A stretch of DNA of 64,000 nucleotides from Parabacteroides sp. PF5-9 (GTDB taxonomy: Bacteria; Bacteroidota; Bacteroidia; Bacteroidales; Tannerellaceae): assembly GCF_029893105.1 (NCBI RefSeq), contig NZ_JARXWG010000007.1:62001-126000 (forward strand), given 5' to 3'. The notes under the pieces are model-generated. The model saw only the letters and a list, made by a program, of their open reading frames with translations, was not told the DNA's origin and ran no database searches. A program made the translations under genes and the position numbers. Shown one piece after another: positions 1-5,881 of the stretch. Each line of letters begins with the position of its first letter. Within the stretch, counting starts at the first letter, position 1.

Positions 1-566
1 TTAAACATCTCCAAATCAAATAGATCTAACAGATGTTCCATATATTTAATGCTGTTCAGATGTCCGTTCACATCCAGATCGCTGTATTTAATCTGATAAG
101 GAACGCCGGGAGTATTGCTCTCCACAGGGGATATTTTGCCGGGACGTTCGATCGGACAAGAACGATCGGAAAGATAAACACTTAACCCCTCTATATCCAA
201 CGAAGTAGGCCGACGTGTCTCCATGTCGATCGCCGCCCAGATCGAACGGGCAAAAGCCATACTTTTTCCCGTATCATCGGTCAATTCAAAACAACGACTC
301 GTAAACAAACGTCCCACCTCATCAATCCAAGTATATACTTTGATCGGTTGAGACATACTCGGATATTCCTGAATTTCGATCGCCAGGCGCGAAAGCACCC
401 AGGCGGTATGCTTTTCACTCATGTCATTAAACCCAAAACCACGCGTGGATGCATGATTAGAAGCAGCATGCATCAAATAATTCCCGATCATCGGAATCGT
501 TACCCGCCCTCTGAAATCGAGAAGATACTCTTCCGTTACAAAATGAAATTCACCAACCTTTTCCAC
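1..566 (-). CDS. Acyl-ACP thioesterase (3' end outside window)
   Basis: Reading the minus strand from a GTG at 564-566 gives 188 residues that run off the window edge without a stop; about 60 residues of a typical 245-residue family member are missing. The protein begins MEKVGEFHFVTEEYLLDFRG and later contains WIDEVGRLFTSRCFEL and the second hot-dog repeat signature YSDLDVNGHLNSIKYMEHLL. Both match FatA/FatB-like thioesterases, which release fatty acids from acyl carrier protein. No in-frame ATG precedes GTG 566, so GTG is chosen. The gene lies 16 bp downstream of ilvN in the same direction, as the last visible gene of the ilv operon. It may supply acyl chains, possibly branched ones made from valine, leucine and isoleucine precursors; that link is inference. 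Confidence 0.85.
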   Translation of the reverse strand, partial: MEKVGEFHFVTEEYLLDFRGRVTIPMIGNYLMHAASNHASTRGFGFNDMSEKHTAWVLSRLAIEIQEYPSMSQPIKVYTWIDEVGRLFTSRCFELTDDTGKSMAFARSIWAAIDMETRRPTSLDIEGLSVYLSDRSCPIERPGKISPVESNTPGVPYQIKYSDLDVNGHLNSIKYMEHLLDLFDLEMF

Positions 567-582
567 GTATCTTAATTATTAA

Positions 583-1140
583 TCATTCACCATTATTCTC
601 CTCTCCTACCTTCTCTTTCATCGAAGCCAGCATATCACTCAACCGCTCTACTTTGCTCTTTGTGATAGCAATACGCCCCGAACGAATAAATTGCAACACA
701 CCGATTGTCTGACTCAACTCATTGAAAAGCGCTTGTGTTTCGGCATAATGTCCGCTTTTCTCAAGCACCACCATATCTTCATTGATTTCAAGCACATGGG
801 CATTGTATTTACGAATCAACTCTTCCGCTCCATTCATCTTAATAAACAAGTCCGTACTCAGTTTATACAAGGCGATCTCTTGATGTACAAGATCTTCATC
901 GGTATTATAATAAGCTTTCAGGATATCCACTCGTTTGTCGATCTGTTTGACCACCTTATCCATCATGTCTTCCGTCGCAAAGGTAGTAATTGTAAATTTA
1001 TGTACCCCTTTTATAGCCGACGGAGAAACCGATAAGGTCTCAATATTCAACTGCCGACGAGTAAATACAATCGTTATCTGGTTTAATAAACCTACTGTAT
1101 TCTCCGAAAATATAATAACCGTATATAATTTCTTTTCCAT
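583..1140 (-). CDS. ilvN: Acetolactate synthase small (regulatory) subunit
   Basis: This 185-residue protein starts MEKKLYTVIIFSENTVGLLN, an N-terminal ACT domain (about residues 3-75), followed by the second regulatory domain typical of IlvN/IlvH. The small subunit binds branched-chain amino acids and gives feedback control to the IlvB catalytic subunit. An upstream in-frame start at 1188 would add 16 residues that are not ACT-like and would be read from an intergenic repeat, so ATG 1140 is preferred. It sits about 70 bp after ilvB and before the acyl-ACP thioesterase in the ilv operon. Confidence 0.93.
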   Translation of the reverse strand: MEKKLYTVIIFSENTVGLLNQITIVFTRRQLNIETLSVSPSAIKGVHKFTITTFATEDMMDKVVKQIDKRVDILKAYYNTDEDLVHQEIALYKLSTDLFIKMNGAEELIRKYNAHVLEINEDMVVLEKSGHYAETQALFNELSQTIGVLQFIRSGRIAITKSKVERLSDMLASMKEKVGEENNGE

Positions 1141-1150
1141 ATTCTTTAAC

Positions 1151-1170
1151 TGAAGTTTGAAGTTAGAAGT
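1151..1170. repeat. Intergenic 20-bp repeat, copy 1
   Basis: The 20 bases here (tgaagtttgaagttagaagt) recur with one mismatch at 4896-4915. Both copies lie just upstream of an ilv-operon gene start. The function is unknown. Confidence 0.5.
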
Positions 1171-1210
1171 ATCCTTTCTAATTGTCAATTATCCATTGTC
1201 TATCCGAATA

Positions 1211-2908
1211 TCATTTTGGGAAAATGATATTTGTCAGGCATGCCCCTGCCGGAATCATCGGATAAACCATTCCATTCGGTTCTACATTGGCAACCAATAG
1301 ATAAGGACCGTCATAATTTAGCATCTCCTCAATCGCTTCGTCCAGTTCCTCCCGTTTTTCCACCAGGCGGCTGCCAATAGCATACGCTTTAGCTATGCCT
1401 ACAAAATCAGGGTTTACCATAATCGTCCCTGAATAACGTTCCTGGAAGAACAACTCCTGCCATTGACGCACCATTCCCAGGAAGTTATTGTTTAATACAA
1501 TCATTTTGAGATGGAGGTTTTCCTGCATAATCGTTCCAAACTCCTGTATGGTCATCTGCAATCCACCATCACCTAAAAAAAGACATACTGTACGATCCGG
1601 TGCTCCGAACTTCGCACCAATAGCTGCCGGTAAACCAAAGCCCATGGTACCCAGCCCGCCTGATGTCACCACACTTCGGGTCTGACTGTATTTAAAATAA
1701 CGAATACCCATCATCTGGTTCTGACCAACATCCGTCACCAATATCGCTTTATTATCTGTAGCCTCCGATACTTTCCGGATGATTTCACCCATTTTCAAAG
1801 ACCCTTCTGTTGGAAAAACCTCTTTTTGAATAACCTTACGGTTTTCTTCCTCTTCATCCGCATCAAAAGAGGTAATCCATGTTGTATGTTTAGCCGGCTT
1901 TATCAATTCTACAACAGCCGACAACGTTTCTTTCGCATCACCGCAAACATCGACATCTACCGGTACGTTTTTGCCAATTTCACTATTATCGATATCAAAA
2001 TGGATGATCCGAGCCTGTTTGGCATAAGTTTCAAGATTACCGGTCACCCGATCATCAAAACGCATACCGATAGCAATAAGGAGATCGCATTCCATCGTCT
2101 TCCGGTTTGGCCCGACATTTCCATGCATGCCCAACAGCCCTTTATTCAAACGATAATCACTCGGGAGAGCTGATAAACCCAATGCTGTCATTCCGGCAGG
2201 GATATCTGCTTTTTCGAGAAAAGTCATCAACTCTTTTTCAGCATGACTAAGAATCACTCCTTGACCAATCAAAGCAAACGGTTTTCGGGCATTATTGATT
2301 AGTTCGGCTGCCGATCGGATCTGTTCCGGATCAATATCCGGTATGGGTTGATAACTACGGATGTAGTTGACTTTCTCATACACATAATCGATCAGTCCTA
2401 CTTGTGCATCTTTGGCAAGGTCGATTACAACCGGCCCCGGTCTACCCGTTGAAGCGATATAAAAAGCACGGGATATCGCCCAAGCGATCTCTTCAGGTTT
2501 CCGTACCTGATAAGCCCATTTGGTAATCGGTTGAGTAATACCGATCACATCTATTTCCTGAAAAGCGTCTGTCCCCAATAAAGAAGAAGGTACTTGCCCG
2601 GTAATCACCACAATCGGCGTACTGTCCATCATCGCATCGGCTATACCGGTAATGGTATTGGTCGCACCGGGACCAGAAGTTACAATTGTCACTCCTACCT
2701 TTCCTGATACACGAGCATATCCCTGCGCCGCATGCGTAGCCCCCTGCTCGTGGCGTACCAATACTAATTTCAACTGGTCGGTATAATCATATAAACTATC
2801 GAATATAGGAATCGCTTGTCCGCCCGGATATCCGAAGATCGTATCTACGCCTTCTGCTATTAAGGTTTTTAACAAGGCCTCCGAGCCAGTTATTTTTTGT
2901 CCCATCAT
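1211..2908 (-). CDS. ilvB: Acetolactate synthase large (catalytic) subunit
   Basis: This 565-residue thiamine-diphosphate enzyme condenses two pyruvates to acetolactate, or pyruvate and 2-ketobutyrate to acetohydroxybutyrate, the first common step to valine, leucine and isoleucine. The N-terminal Pyr domain carries the catalytic glutamate in VRHEQGATHAA (about residue 54). The central FAD-binding-type domain follows. The C-terminal domain carries the ThDP/Mg motif GDGGLQMTIQEFGTI...NNN (about residues 450-480). The length is normal for the family. Two adjacent ATGs (2908 and 2905) are possible starts. The gene lies about 140 bp after ilvD and 70 bp before ilvN, all in one direction. Confidence 0.95.
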   Translation of the reverse strand: MMGQKITGSEALLKTLIAEGVDTIFGYPGGQAIPIFDSLYDYTDQLKLVLVRHEQGATHAAQGYARVSGKVGVTIVTSGPGATNTITGIADAMMDSTPIVVITGQVPSSLLGTDAFQEIDVIGITQPITKWAYQVRKPEEIAWAISRAFYIASTGRPGPVVIDLAKDAQVGLIDYVYEKVNYIRSYQPIPDIDPEQIRSAAELINNARKPFALIGQGVILSHAEKELMTFLEKADIPAGMTALGLSALPSDYRLNKGLLGMHGNVGPNRKTMECDLLIAIGMRFDDRVTGNLETYAKQARIIHFDIDNSEIGKNVPVDVDVCGDAKETLSAVVELIKPAKHTTWITSFDADEEEENRKVIQKEVFPTEGSLKMGEIIRKVSEATDNKAILVTDVGQNQMMGIRYFKYSQTRSVVTSGGLGTMGFGLPAAIGAKFGAPDRTVCLFLGDGGLQMTIQEFGTIMQENLHLKMIVLNNNFLGMVRQWQELFFQERYSGTIMVNPDFVGIAKAYAIGSRLVEKREELDEAIEEMLNYDGPYLLVANVEPNGMVYPMIPAGACLTNIIFPK

Positions 2909-3048: not shown

Positions 3049-4881
3049 TTAATCTTCAACAATGCGAACCCCACCTTTATCGGCCGACGATACCATTTTA
3101 GCATACGCCTTTAATGATCTGGATATAGTCCGTTCACGTAATGGAGGTGTATACGCTTTCGCCCCGCGTGCCTCTTCAACGGCACGGCGTGCAGCTATTT
3201 CTTCATTCGTCAACTGGACATTTATTGTTCTTTCAGGGATATTTATTTCAATGATATCACCATCTTTTATTAAAGCAATTGCTCCTCCTGATGCTGCTTC
3301 CGGAGAAACATGGCCAATAGAGAGTCCTGAAGTGCCTCCACTGAAACGCCCGTCGGTAATCAGTGCACAATCCTTACCCAGATGTTTACTTTTAATATAC
3401 GAGGTAGGATACAACATTTCCTGCATACCCGGCCCCCCTTTAGGCCCTTCATAGGTAATCACCACAACATCTCCGGCTACGACCTGATCCTTCAATATAC
3501 CTTCACAAGCTGCATCCTGTGAATCGAATACTTTGGCAGGCCCGGTAAACCGAAAGATACTTTCATCGACTCCGGCAGTTTTTACCACACATCCGGCTTC
3601 GGCTATATTTCCATATAAGACCGCCAACCCACCATCTTTGACATAGGCATGTTCCATATCCCGGATACATCCGGCTGTACGATCCGTATCCAACGACTTA
3701 TAGTAGGTCTCTTGTGAGCCAAGTATCAAATTGAATTTGTGTGCCGGTGCACTTTTATAAAGCGCAACAGCTTCTTCCAGAAGATTAGGAGATGTAATGG
3801 CGTATCGATTTATCGCTTCCGAGAGAGTCAGTCCGTCAACGCGTTTAACAGAACCATCAATCAAACCGCCCTTTTCTAATTCAGCCAAAATACCGATAAT
3901 ACCTCCTGCTCGATTCACATCCTGTATATGGTAAGAGCAACTGGGTGCAACTTTGCATAACACCGGTGTTTTACGGGATAAATAATCGATATCCTTCATC
4001 GTGAACTCAACTTCTGCTTCATGTGCAACAGCGAGTAAATGAAGTACCGTATTGGTTGACCCACCCATCGCTATATCCAATGTCATCGCATTCAGAAAAG
4101 CCTCACGAGTAGCGATACGGCGTGGCAATACCGATTCGTCTCCATCCCGATAATATTTATAGGCATTTTCAACAATTAATTTAGCCGCTTTTTCAAACAG
4201 AACTGTTCGGTTTGCATGGGTAGCCACCACCGTACCGTTCCCTGGTAAGGCCAGTCCGATCGCTTCATTCAAACAATTCATGGAGTTTGCCGTGAACATT
4301 CCCGAACAGCTGCCACATGTCGGACAAGCCGCACGTTCTACTTTCTCCACCTGCTCGTCGCTGATCGAATCATCCGCCGCTTCAATCATCGCATCAATCA
4401 GATCCAGATAACGGCCGTCTAATTCTCCGGCTTCCATAGGGCCACCGGATACAAATATGGCAGGAATATTCAGACGCATAGCAGCCATTAACATTCCCGG
4501 AGTAATCTTATCACAATTACTGATGCATACCATCGCATCTGCCTTATGAGCATTGACCATATATTCGACACTATCAGCTATCAAATCGCGTGAAGGAAGC
4601 GAATACAGCATACCATCATGCCCCATGGCAATTCCATCGTCAATAGCGATTGTATTGAATTCGGCCGCAAAACAACCCAACTTTTCGATTTCCGCTTTGA
4701 CTTGCTGCCCAATCTCATGCAAATGCACATGTCCCGGCACAAACTGTGTAAATGAATTGACAATCGCTATAATCGGCCGGCCAAACTGCTCTTCTTTCAT
4801 GCCATTGGCACGCCAAAGTGCCCGTGCACCTGCCATTCGGCGACCTTCGGTACTATATGAACTGCGTAATTTATTTATCAT
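3049..4881 (-). CDS. ilvD: Dihydroxy-acid dehydratase
   Basis: This 610-residue Fe-S dehydratase converts 2,3-dihydroxy acids to 2-keto acids in valine, leucine and isoleucine synthesis. The cluster cysteines are visible in [14 protein letters not shown] (about C119, C123) and [16 protein letters not shown] (about C186-C192), and the C-terminal active-site segment reads [21 protein letters not shown]. It is the first structural gene of the ilv operon. Upstream lie an attenuator (4955-4977), a leader peptide (5025-5084) and a promoter (5116-5146), so transcription into the gene should depend on Ile/Leu/Val supply. Confidence 0.96.
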
Positions 4882-4895
4882 ATTTTTTATTTATT

Positions 4896-4915
4896 TGAAG
4901 TTTGAAGATAGAAGT
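4896..4915. repeat. Intergenic 20-bp repeat, copy 2
   Basis: This is the second copy of the repeat at 1151-1170 (tgaagtttgaagatagaagt, one mismatch). It lies between the ilv attenuator and the ilvD start. Confidence 0.5.
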
Positions 4916-4947
4916 TGGAAGTTACTCCTATCTTCAATATCATTTAC

Positions 4948-4977
4948 AAAAAAAGCCTTTCCCGTATGGAGAAAGGC
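4948..4977 (-). terminator. ilv attenuator (rho-independent terminator)
   Basis: On the minus strand a GCCTTTC arm (4971-4977) pairs perfectly with GAAAGGC (4955-4961) around a 9-nt loop and is followed at once by seven U (4948-4954). It lies between the leader peptide and ilvD. The segment CCTTTCTCC (4968-4976) of its 5' arm and loop is exactly complementary to GGAGAAAGG at 5015-5023, just after the leader stop, which forms a competing antiterminator. Confidence 0.85.
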
Positions 4978-5014
4978 CCTATGTTTATCCTCTTGATTGA
5001 ACAGTTACTACATA

Positions 5015-5023
5015 CCTTTCTCC
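5015..5023 (-). promoter_or_regulatory. ilv antiterminator arm
   Basis: GGAGAAAGG on the minus strand begins 2 nt after the leader-peptide stop codon. It is a perfect 9-bp complement of CCTTTCTCC in the attenuator (4968-4976). A ribosome that finishes the leader would cover it and let the terminator form. A ribosome stalled earlier on Ile/Leu/Val codons would leave it free to pair and block termination. Confidence 0.75.
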
Positions 5024-5024
5024 C

Positions 5025-5084
5025 TTACCTGCTAATGACTAGAAGGACGACCACGAGAATACTATGTAATACGTTCTTAAACAT
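5025..5084 (-). CDS. ilv operon leader peptide
   Basis: A 20-codon minus-strand frame encodes MFKNVLHSILVVVLLVISR and stops at 5025-5027. Nine consecutive codons specify Ile, Leu or Val (residues 9-17), and two more lie at residues 5-6. This composition, the position 25-60 nt downstream of a good promoter, and the terminator/antiterminator pair that follows are the hallmarks of transcription attenuation by ribosome stalling. The product is expected to act only through its own translation and to have no function as a protein. Scarce charged tRNA for any branched-chain amino acid would stall the ribosome and open ilvD-ilvB-ilvN expression. Confidence 0.88.
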   Translation of the reverse strand: MFKNVLHSILVVVLLVISR

Positions 5085-5115
5085 TTTTCTTGATCTGATG
5101 TCATGTTCGACGGTG

Positions 5116-5146
5116 CAAATGTAGAATAATAATCCTTTTCAGCAAA
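5116..5146 (-). promoter_or_regulatory. ilv operon promoter
   Basis: On the minus strand a TTTG -33 element (5143-5146) is followed after 19 bp by TACATTTG (5116-5123), an exact match to the Bacteroidetes -7 consensus TAnnTTTG. Transcription should start near 5109, about 25 nt before the leader-peptide ATG. Confidence 0.8.
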
Positions 5147-5317
5147 GGATTTAAAAGATTTTTCTTGATTTTTCTTTCAATTAGCAAGGAAACAAGACTT
5201 TCTTTCTACAATTTGGCAAATAGAAAACAGAATATCCATCCGCTCCAAATTCATTGGTTGGTTTTCGAAAAGACTACATATTCGGACTTAGCTATACTTT
5301 CTGAAAAAGACCTCTTT

Positions 5318-5881
5318 TTAACTTATCTCACACTGTCCTAACATCGGATAAAATAAACTGACCATCTCTTCACGCGTATAGATCGATTGAAACTCACTGA
5401 CCAAACTTTCGAATACCGAAAAAGACCACTCTTCACGATTAGACGTAATCAGATGTTTCCATAATAAGATTTCTGCCTGTTTTTTTATCGGAAGAACTGC
5501 GTAACAGGAATGATATCCTCTATACAACAGTTTCAAGGTCTCAAAATAACGTTTATTCTCTGAGCGCTCCAACTCTCCACAATGAATAATCGCATAAGTC
5601 GACTTTTTAAGAGAACCACAATCGATATCTACCCACGGAGGTAATAAAATCATTTCGCCCTCTTGCAGCGGATAAAACCCATAATATTCGCCACTTAAAT
5701 ACATTTCACCCTGCAATAAAAAGAAAATACGATACGAATAACTTCGAGTAAATCTCCTCACATTATATGGAGAGAGTTCACGATAAATCACATTTTCAAC
5801 AATCTTATTCAGCCGGTTATCTCGCCGCTCCAGCCCTAAGACATATGCATTTGTTTTACTGTTTGCTACTTCTAGTTCCAT
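5318..5881 (-). CDS. Cupin-like (AraC N-terminal-type) protein without HTH
   Basis: This is a 187-residue protein not recognised as a named family. Residues about 45-100 read like the beta-barrel sensing domain of AraC regulators (RSYSYRIFFLLQGEMYLSG, then YPLQEGEMILLPPW). The C-terminal half shows no helix-turn-helix, so it is much shorter than a 290-residue AraC protein. It could be a stand-alone ligand sensor or a regulator that lost its DNA-binding half. It is transcribed like the ilv operon but lies upstream of the ilv promoter, and so has its own control. Confidence 0.55.
   Translation of the reverse strand: MELEVANSKTNAYVLGLERRDNRLNKIVENVIYRELSPYNVRRFTRSYSYRIFFLLQGEMYLSGEYYGFYPLQEGEMILLPPWVDIDCGSLKKSTYAIIHCGELERSENKRYFETLKLLYRGYHSCYAVLPIKKQAEILLWKHLITSNREEWSFSVFESLVSEFQSIYTREEMVSLFYPMLGQCEIS

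Follow-up and report, generated by a model that had tools for sequence, protein, structure and literature searches.

The window, by which we mean the whole 64,000-nt stretch of DNA that was analysed, carries on its minus strand an operon for branched-chain amino acid synthesis. The first gene of this regulated operon, ilvD (3049..4881; TIGR00110, 792.9 bits against a cut-off of 618.15), is followed by ilvB for the acetolactate synthase large subunit (1211..2908; TIGR00118, 682.6 bits), ilvN for the small subunit (583..1188; TIGR00119, 78.2 bits, and PF10369), whose true start may lie further in than these annotated limits, and an acyl-ACP thioesterase-like gene (1..566; PF01643/PF20791) that runs off the window. 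ilvC is found downstream of the thioesterase-like gene, outside the window (locus L125; TIGR00465, 319.6 bits), giving the order ilvD-ilvB-ilvN-(acyl-ACP thioesterase)-ilvC. Lying between ilvN and ilvC (window 1-566 and L125), the thioesterase-like gene would fall under branched-chain amino acid control. A 187-aa reading frame (5318-5881, minus strand) with no NCBIfam or Pfam match is located on the same strand, just 5' of the putative attenuator described below.

The initial annotation placed a promoter, a leader peptide, an antiterminator arm and a terminator within 4948-5146, and we found all four on the minus strand where it put them. The promoter (5116..5146) consists of TTTG (-33) at 5146-5143, a 19-nt spacer and TACATTTG (-7) at 5123-5116, and we assign it to the Bacteroides type by what we take to be the consensus for such promoters. 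The pattern TTTG-N17-21-TAnnTTTG precedes the leader in 48/55 sequences from the same family and 18 of 31 from other families of the order, compared with 6/2,750 and 4/1,550 shuffles. Transcription would start at about 5109..5111, ~5-7 nt past the -7 box. The leader peptide ORF MFKNVLHSILVVVLLVISR (5025..5084; ATG 5084-5082, stop TAA 5027-5025) is conserved in relatives and, as annotated, has 19 residues with nine consecutive Ile/Leu/Val codons. These occupy positions 9-17 (ATT CTC GTG GTC GTC CTT CTA GTC ATT; 5034..5060) and are predicted from the sequence and from folding to be the regulatory codons; the Leu and Val codons are mostly the rarer ones in the window's genes (CTA 0.07, CTC 0.11, CTT 0.15, GTC 0.19). 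A run of nine within an ATG ORF of 12-35 aa was obtained in 0 of 2,000 dinucleotide shuffles of its own upstream region. Since three of the 670 short ATG ORFs in the window, the ilv leader included, reach at least nine Ile/Leu/Val in 10, the run alone is suggestive, not decisive, and the weight of the argument rests on the position and conservation of the predicted leader, not on the run itself. The other two such ORFs (44621, plus strand, and 37426, minus strand) were rejected as leaders, as they are antisense within longer reading frames.

As in ribosome-mediated attenuators, an intrinsic terminator is located between the leader and ilvD (regions 3 and 4; 4948..4980, minus strand), with a 12-bp stem at 4980-4952 and a T run to 4948. 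It is the sole terminator-like site in 4800-5400 (shuffles mean 0.4). Region 2 (4999..5024, minus strand) contains the antiterminator arm GGAGAAAGG at 5023-5015, and region 3 (4968..4984, minus strand) contains CCTTTCTCC at 4976-4968, the terminator 5' arm. The two arms are exactly complementary, as the annotation noted, and ACATA at 4984-4980 in region 3 can lengthen the antiterminator via pairing with 5014-5010. GGAGAAAGG begins 1 nt past the leader stop, a placement that would let a terminating ribosome cover the arm. Between the terminator and the ATG of ilvD there is a separate 14-bp hairpin (4903-4937, minus strand). The MFE of 4880-4950 is -18.8 kcal/mol (z -6.3), equally stable shuffles were obtained in 0 of 200 cases, and the hairpin perhaps protects the mRNA 5' end after read-through.

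The initial annotation described the device as a compact two-state version. In the MFE fold of the leader, however, the leader codons are paired with the antiterminator arm and the sequence after it. This protector stem was missed by the annotation, and because it is conserved we reject the two-state design. The arrangement read from the sequences is the classical three-state one, with a 1:2 protector, a 2:3 antiterminator and a 3:4 terminator. The protector strand, region 1 (5055..5076, minus strand), is delimited by the MFE fold, by RNAalifold on 41 family sequences and by pair counts. In alignment A1 (41 of 52 distinct family sequences), 90.4% of the protector stem cells are paired and 25 cells are changed on both sides, compared with a shuffle mean of 10.8 (0/500 as high) and with slid controls that are 37-64% paired; the structure for these counts was taken from one member, so they are biased in its favour. 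RNAalifold, working from the alignment alone, recovers the same stem minus its outermost helix, and one of its pairs is A-U 18 times, G-C 13 times and G-U 8 times. The terminator stem is likewise conserved (98.5% of cells paired), and the antiterminator arm is 97.8% paired with little variation within the family. Alignment A2, made of 22 of the 31 other-family sequences and three family ones, was inspected only.

We asked how widely the leader is kept, using a set of sequences upstream of ilvD drawn from the better matches of homologue searches: 60 from the same family and 40 from other families of the same order, own sequence included, with L012 (86 bases, cut off) omitted throughout. An ORF with at least seven Ile/Leu/Val in 10, no more than 400 nt upstream, is present in 55/60 family and 34/40 other-family sequences (shuffle background 48/1,200 and 36/800, respectively). 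At the stricter level of at least nine in 10 the counts are 45/60 and 13/40, and 0/1,200 and 0/800 in shuffles. The common leader peptide of the family is MNNVLHIILVVVLLVISR. Distant leaders, for example MKNSQLYVINLLVIILGIIT and MSIYSRIISLVVVVLVKRLPG, are altered in peptide sequence and retain the amino acid make-up. An ATG-started leader at the seven-of-10 level is absent in 11 of the 100 sequences. In a named set, the best 80 IlvD matches kept from GTDB, the leader ORF is present in 37/80, carriers including Bacteroides graminisolvens (DSM 19988, L152, which has the terminator as well), Phocaeicola faecalis, Labilibaculum and Marinifilum, and absent in 43/80, among them several Prevotella-type records. 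The leader is thus not universal, given the 11 sequences and 43 named relatives that lack one. The candidate ilv attenuator appears widespread across the Bacteroidales and is computationally strong at the level of the order.

We then compared, for each of 86 sequences, the terminator 5' arm with its best complement between the leader end and the terminator. These are what remained of 101 after omission, before the covariation and folding tests, of sequences with no convincing leader (L042, L057, L060, L061, L063, L066, L073, L088, L089 and L098) or no terminator detected (L049, L081, L094 and L101) and of L012; L099, with arm and terminator wrongly detected, was kept in the counts. L057 may by eye have a weaker leader, which was not counted. 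In the 31 other-family sequences, the mean arm/terminator fit is 21.5 within the same genome and 16.6 across genomes, and the same-genome value was reached in 0/20,000 permutations, indicating that an antiterminator competing with the terminator is conserved by covariation. This support comes from the other families because the arm barely varies within its own. Joint changes of arm and terminator are seen in L083 (GAATGG with CCATTC), L092 (GGAGGGCT with AGCCCTCC) and L079 (GTGGAAAGG with CCTTTCCAC). The arm starts between -5 and +4 nt from the end of the leader stop in 52/55 family and 25/31 other-family sequences, and in many distant sequences the TGA stop forms part of the arm. Retention of both the Ile/Leu/Val codons and the pairing arms in relatives had been set beforehand as a test of the initial reading, which passes it on the leader counts and permutations given above.

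To model the switch, we set a ribosome on every leader codon in turn and folded the RNA 3' of it, taking its footprint to extend 14 nt beyond the first base of the A-site; the calculation was at equilibrium, with no kinetics. For the window sequence with no ribosome, P(terminator) is 0.86, so that an untranslated leader is predicted to terminate, via the protector stem. P(antiterminator) is 0.96-0.99 when the A-site lies at codons 9-16; at codon 17 the two structures are balanced (antiterminator 0.44, terminator 0.45); and at codons 18-20 P(terminator) is 0.87-0.89. As the antiterminator wins at codons 9-16 and the terminator at 18-20, the Ile/Leu/Val codons 9-17 sit almost exactly at the stall positions that flip the fold. 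The model thus reproduces the earlier proposal that stalling frees the arm and completing the leader masks it. Across the family, mean P(antiterminator) is 0.61 at Ile/Leu/Val codons and 0.00 at the stop. For the 31 other-family sequences the mean is just 0.26, and the value is near 0 in about half; there the finished terminator is more stable, so either the switch is kinetic and has to be settled ahead of region 4 synthesis, or our model oversimplifies. A decision before region 4 is synthesized is usual in such attenuators.

The same genome offers further leaders for comparison. Upstream of hisG we found the leader MKFAVNHHHHHHYIGQLFGGR, with His6, plus a terminator, and a His-rich leader is present at 12/15 hisG loci of this and related genomes (none in L105, L114 and L117). 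The leuA gene, which is on this contig but beyond the window, is preceded by an Ile/Leu leader MKLNSTNSIIILISIILLWERDRK and then GGAAGTGAG; the next terminator contains the exact complement of the latter, CTCACTTCC. A match to Bacteroid-trp (RF01692) precedes trpB-trpE (68.8 bits; gathering 49). At the trp locus L122, the ORF scan did not find a Trp-rich ORF before trpE, and the first 121 bases match Bacteroid-trp with its 5' end cut. A Thr/Ile-rich leader was not found in the thrA upstream region. In L124, 5' of an aspartokinase/homoserine dehydrogenase gene, a 23-residue ORF MSADLAYYTWALTMTPWGVRINN, a CCGG-rich inverted repeat and TTCTTTTT can be seen by eye, and this ORF is a possible leader. 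Thus, as read from the sequences, leader codons track the pathway across ilv, his, leu and trp in one genome. That codons follow the pathway, with His before hisG, Ile/Leu before leuA and a trp leader, is the strongest argument that ribosomes read the leader codons.

Sequence comparison shows that the elements are there and conserved, that their pairings co-vary and that leader codons match the pathway, and together with the folding it strongly supports the reading of attenuation by ribosome stalling that was proposed at the outset. We put the probability that this element controls the ilv operon by ribosome-mediated transcription attenuation at roughly 0.93. We infer from these data how transcription start, leader translation, stalling and the switch would play out in the cell. 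Transcription would begin near 5110, and the leading ribosome would translate the 19-codon leader behind RNA polymerase. When charged Ile, Leu or Val tRNA is scarce, this ribosome would stall on codons 9-16/17 and cover region 1; the 2:3 antiterminator would then form in place of the terminator, and polymerase would proceed into ilvD-ilvB-ilvN-thioesterase-ilvC. When the amino acids are ample, the ribosome would reach the stop codon that abuts region 2 and cover the arm, regions 3 and 4 would pair, and transcription would stop near 4948. If the leader is untranslated, 1:2 pairing would likewise allow the terminator to form. Such a mechanism would require coupling of ribosome and polymerase.

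We also considered whether the element could work with no sensing by ribosomes, either as a constitutive weak terminator or through an RNA-binding protein or metabolite that picks the fold, in which case the short ORF would be incidental. Another factor might in principle drive the alternative folds, with nothing direct to indicate one, but such a scheme sits poorly with an ORF that keeps its Ile/Leu/Val codons despite sequence divergence, with an arm located at the stop codon in nearly all sequences, and with hisG and leuA leaders that have His and Ile/Leu codons instead. We regard it as very improbable. Equally slim is the chance of a mainly translational effect, in which leader translation governs ilvD translation by reinitiation or start sequestering and the terminator is secondary. 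Leaders near structural genes possibly promote reinitiation (PMC4833913), and the very stable hairpin at 4903-4937 stands between the terminator and the ilvD start. However, 143 nt separate the leader stop from the ilvD ATG, and the parts that are conserved and co-vary are the T-run terminator and the arm that competes with it. The hairpin occurs once in its own genome, the only one searched, with up to 3 mismatches allowed.

Action in trans, whether by the leader peptide or by the short transcript that ends at 4948 and would serve as a small RNA, has a precedent in the trans-acting leader peptide of Sinorhizobium (PMC7298713), and we give it hardly any probability here. The element is just 5' of ilvD in the sets examined, which favours a cis role and does not oppose an additional role in trans, and nothing found here supports trans action.

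Ribosome-mediated attenuation itself is a textbook mechanism, classic from E. coli, and the phylum already has a known example in Bacteroid-trp. The enteric ilvGMEDA, ilvBN and leuABCD attenuators of E. coli and Salmonella have codons for the end products, 1:2, 2:3 and 3:4 pairings, and a stop codon beside region 2. The ilv element shares with them the leader codons, this set of pairings and the stop placement, whereas no sequence relation to them was seen, and it differs in its Bacteroides-type promoter, its 19-codon leader and the lack of a match to an Rfam leader family. Searches of the open literature brought up no publication on a Bacteroidales ilv attenuator. Two older comparative studies, Vitreschak 2004 and Lopatovskaya 2010, may have predicted such attenuators, and the abstract of the former reportedly mentions Bacteroidetes/Chlorobi.

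Against Rfam 15, no family reaches its gathering score over the ilv element, and thus no riboswitch or protein-binding leader does; among weak matches at E up to 10 none is an amino acid leader, and RF01692 has no match in 4880-5320 even at E 10. Leader-peptide attenuation in the phylum is known from Bacteroid-trp (PMC2864571), which Rfam calls the 'Bacteroidete tryptophan peptide leader RNA'. Both it and the ilv element are peptide-leader RNAs upstream of amino acid operons in the same phylum, but Bacteroid-trp is a tryptophan leader of other sequence, and the ilv element does not match its model. The ilvB-II, ilvB-OMG and ilvB motifs likewise place a uORF with many branched-chain codons upstream of ilv genes, and ilvB-II also has a terminator (PMC10272879). 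In contrast to the present element, located before ilvD and without an Rfam match, ilvB-II (Corynebacterium) and ilvB (Leptospira) are of other sequences and precede ilvB. Leader-peptide attenuators have been inferred upstream of amino acid biosynthesis operons in Flavobacterium psychrophilum (PMC9723704), which belongs to the same phylum but to the Flavobacteriaceae; the conserved 5' elements named in its section on the subject include pheA and hisG, not ilvD. A transcriptome study of B. thetaiotaomicron likens short ORFs to leader peptides and makes no mention of ilv (PMC7366714).

We built a covariance model of the family ilv element (R1) to follow its distribution. In its own genome, R1 scores 126.5 bits at the ilv element, and the second best match is the leuA leader at 40.2 bits. 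Two further matches, at 32.3 and 29.4 bits, resemble the terminators commonly seen at gene ends (L233 by its ORFs and L234 by eye) and were rejected, so scores below ~33 bits carry little weight. Above 33 bits, R1 detects 30/80 named relatives and 25/40 other-family loci. Beyond the order, IlvD belongs to a more distant type, and a phylum-wide IlvD search at E 1e-50 returned two genomes besides its own. Among 19 class-level loci (18 genomes), examined with a leader scan that recovered the positive controls L001, L130 and L131, three show by eye an Ile/Leu/Val-rich ORF followed by a terminator-like hairpin. The matching arm is TGAGGCAC with GTGCCTCA in L139 and GAATGGC with GCCATTC in L141, and it is weak in L140; we treat these loci as a lead toward a spread of the ilv attenuator beyond the order. 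Among the best 80 IlvD matches kept from GTDB, the leader is absent from 7/7 Desulfobulbaceae records (L190, L194, L202, L211, L217, L226 and L228, which include Electronema, Desulfogranum and Desulforhopalus). The N-terminal part of their IlvD is 85-90% identical to that of the window over the 150 residues compared, and judging by these sequences it looks as if the gene had been transferred without its attenuator.

We lean toward the wider view that the Bacteroidales employ classical leader-peptide attenuation for a whole group of pathways (ilv, leu, his and trp in one genome), conserved over dozens of families, with the first ribosome running close enough behind RNA polymerase to decide its fate, and that some lineages place two complete ilv attenuators one after the other as a serial gate, their leaders differing in Ile/Leu/Val make-up. 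Initiation in the Bacteroidales is generally regarded as independent of Shine-Dalgarno pairing. If the ilv element acts as proposed, it would offer a conserved natural readout of how ribosome and polymerase are coupled in the Bacteroidales, a dominant order of the gut, and it would account for how branched-chain amino acid synthesis is set, including the acyl-ACP thioesterase gene in the operon. The putative attenuator would also be a ready amino acid-responsive switch for Bacteroidales genetics and is a candidate new Rfam family.

The tandem arrangement is the least expected of our observations. In four relatives, two leader-plus-terminator units lie in series 5' of ilvD (L219 1143-1450, L222 1090-1390, L229 1144-1445 and L101 271-570), the carriers being Labilibaculum, Marinifilum, a Marinifilaceae record and L101. 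Tandem attenuators are known in Salmonella mgtCBR (PMC3641672). In L219 the two leaders differ in make-up, MQFNSVIIISVIIRVLLDTIRG being followed by the Ile/Val-rich MLSFKVVIIVIIISIVIIRMTRRESVHIQ.
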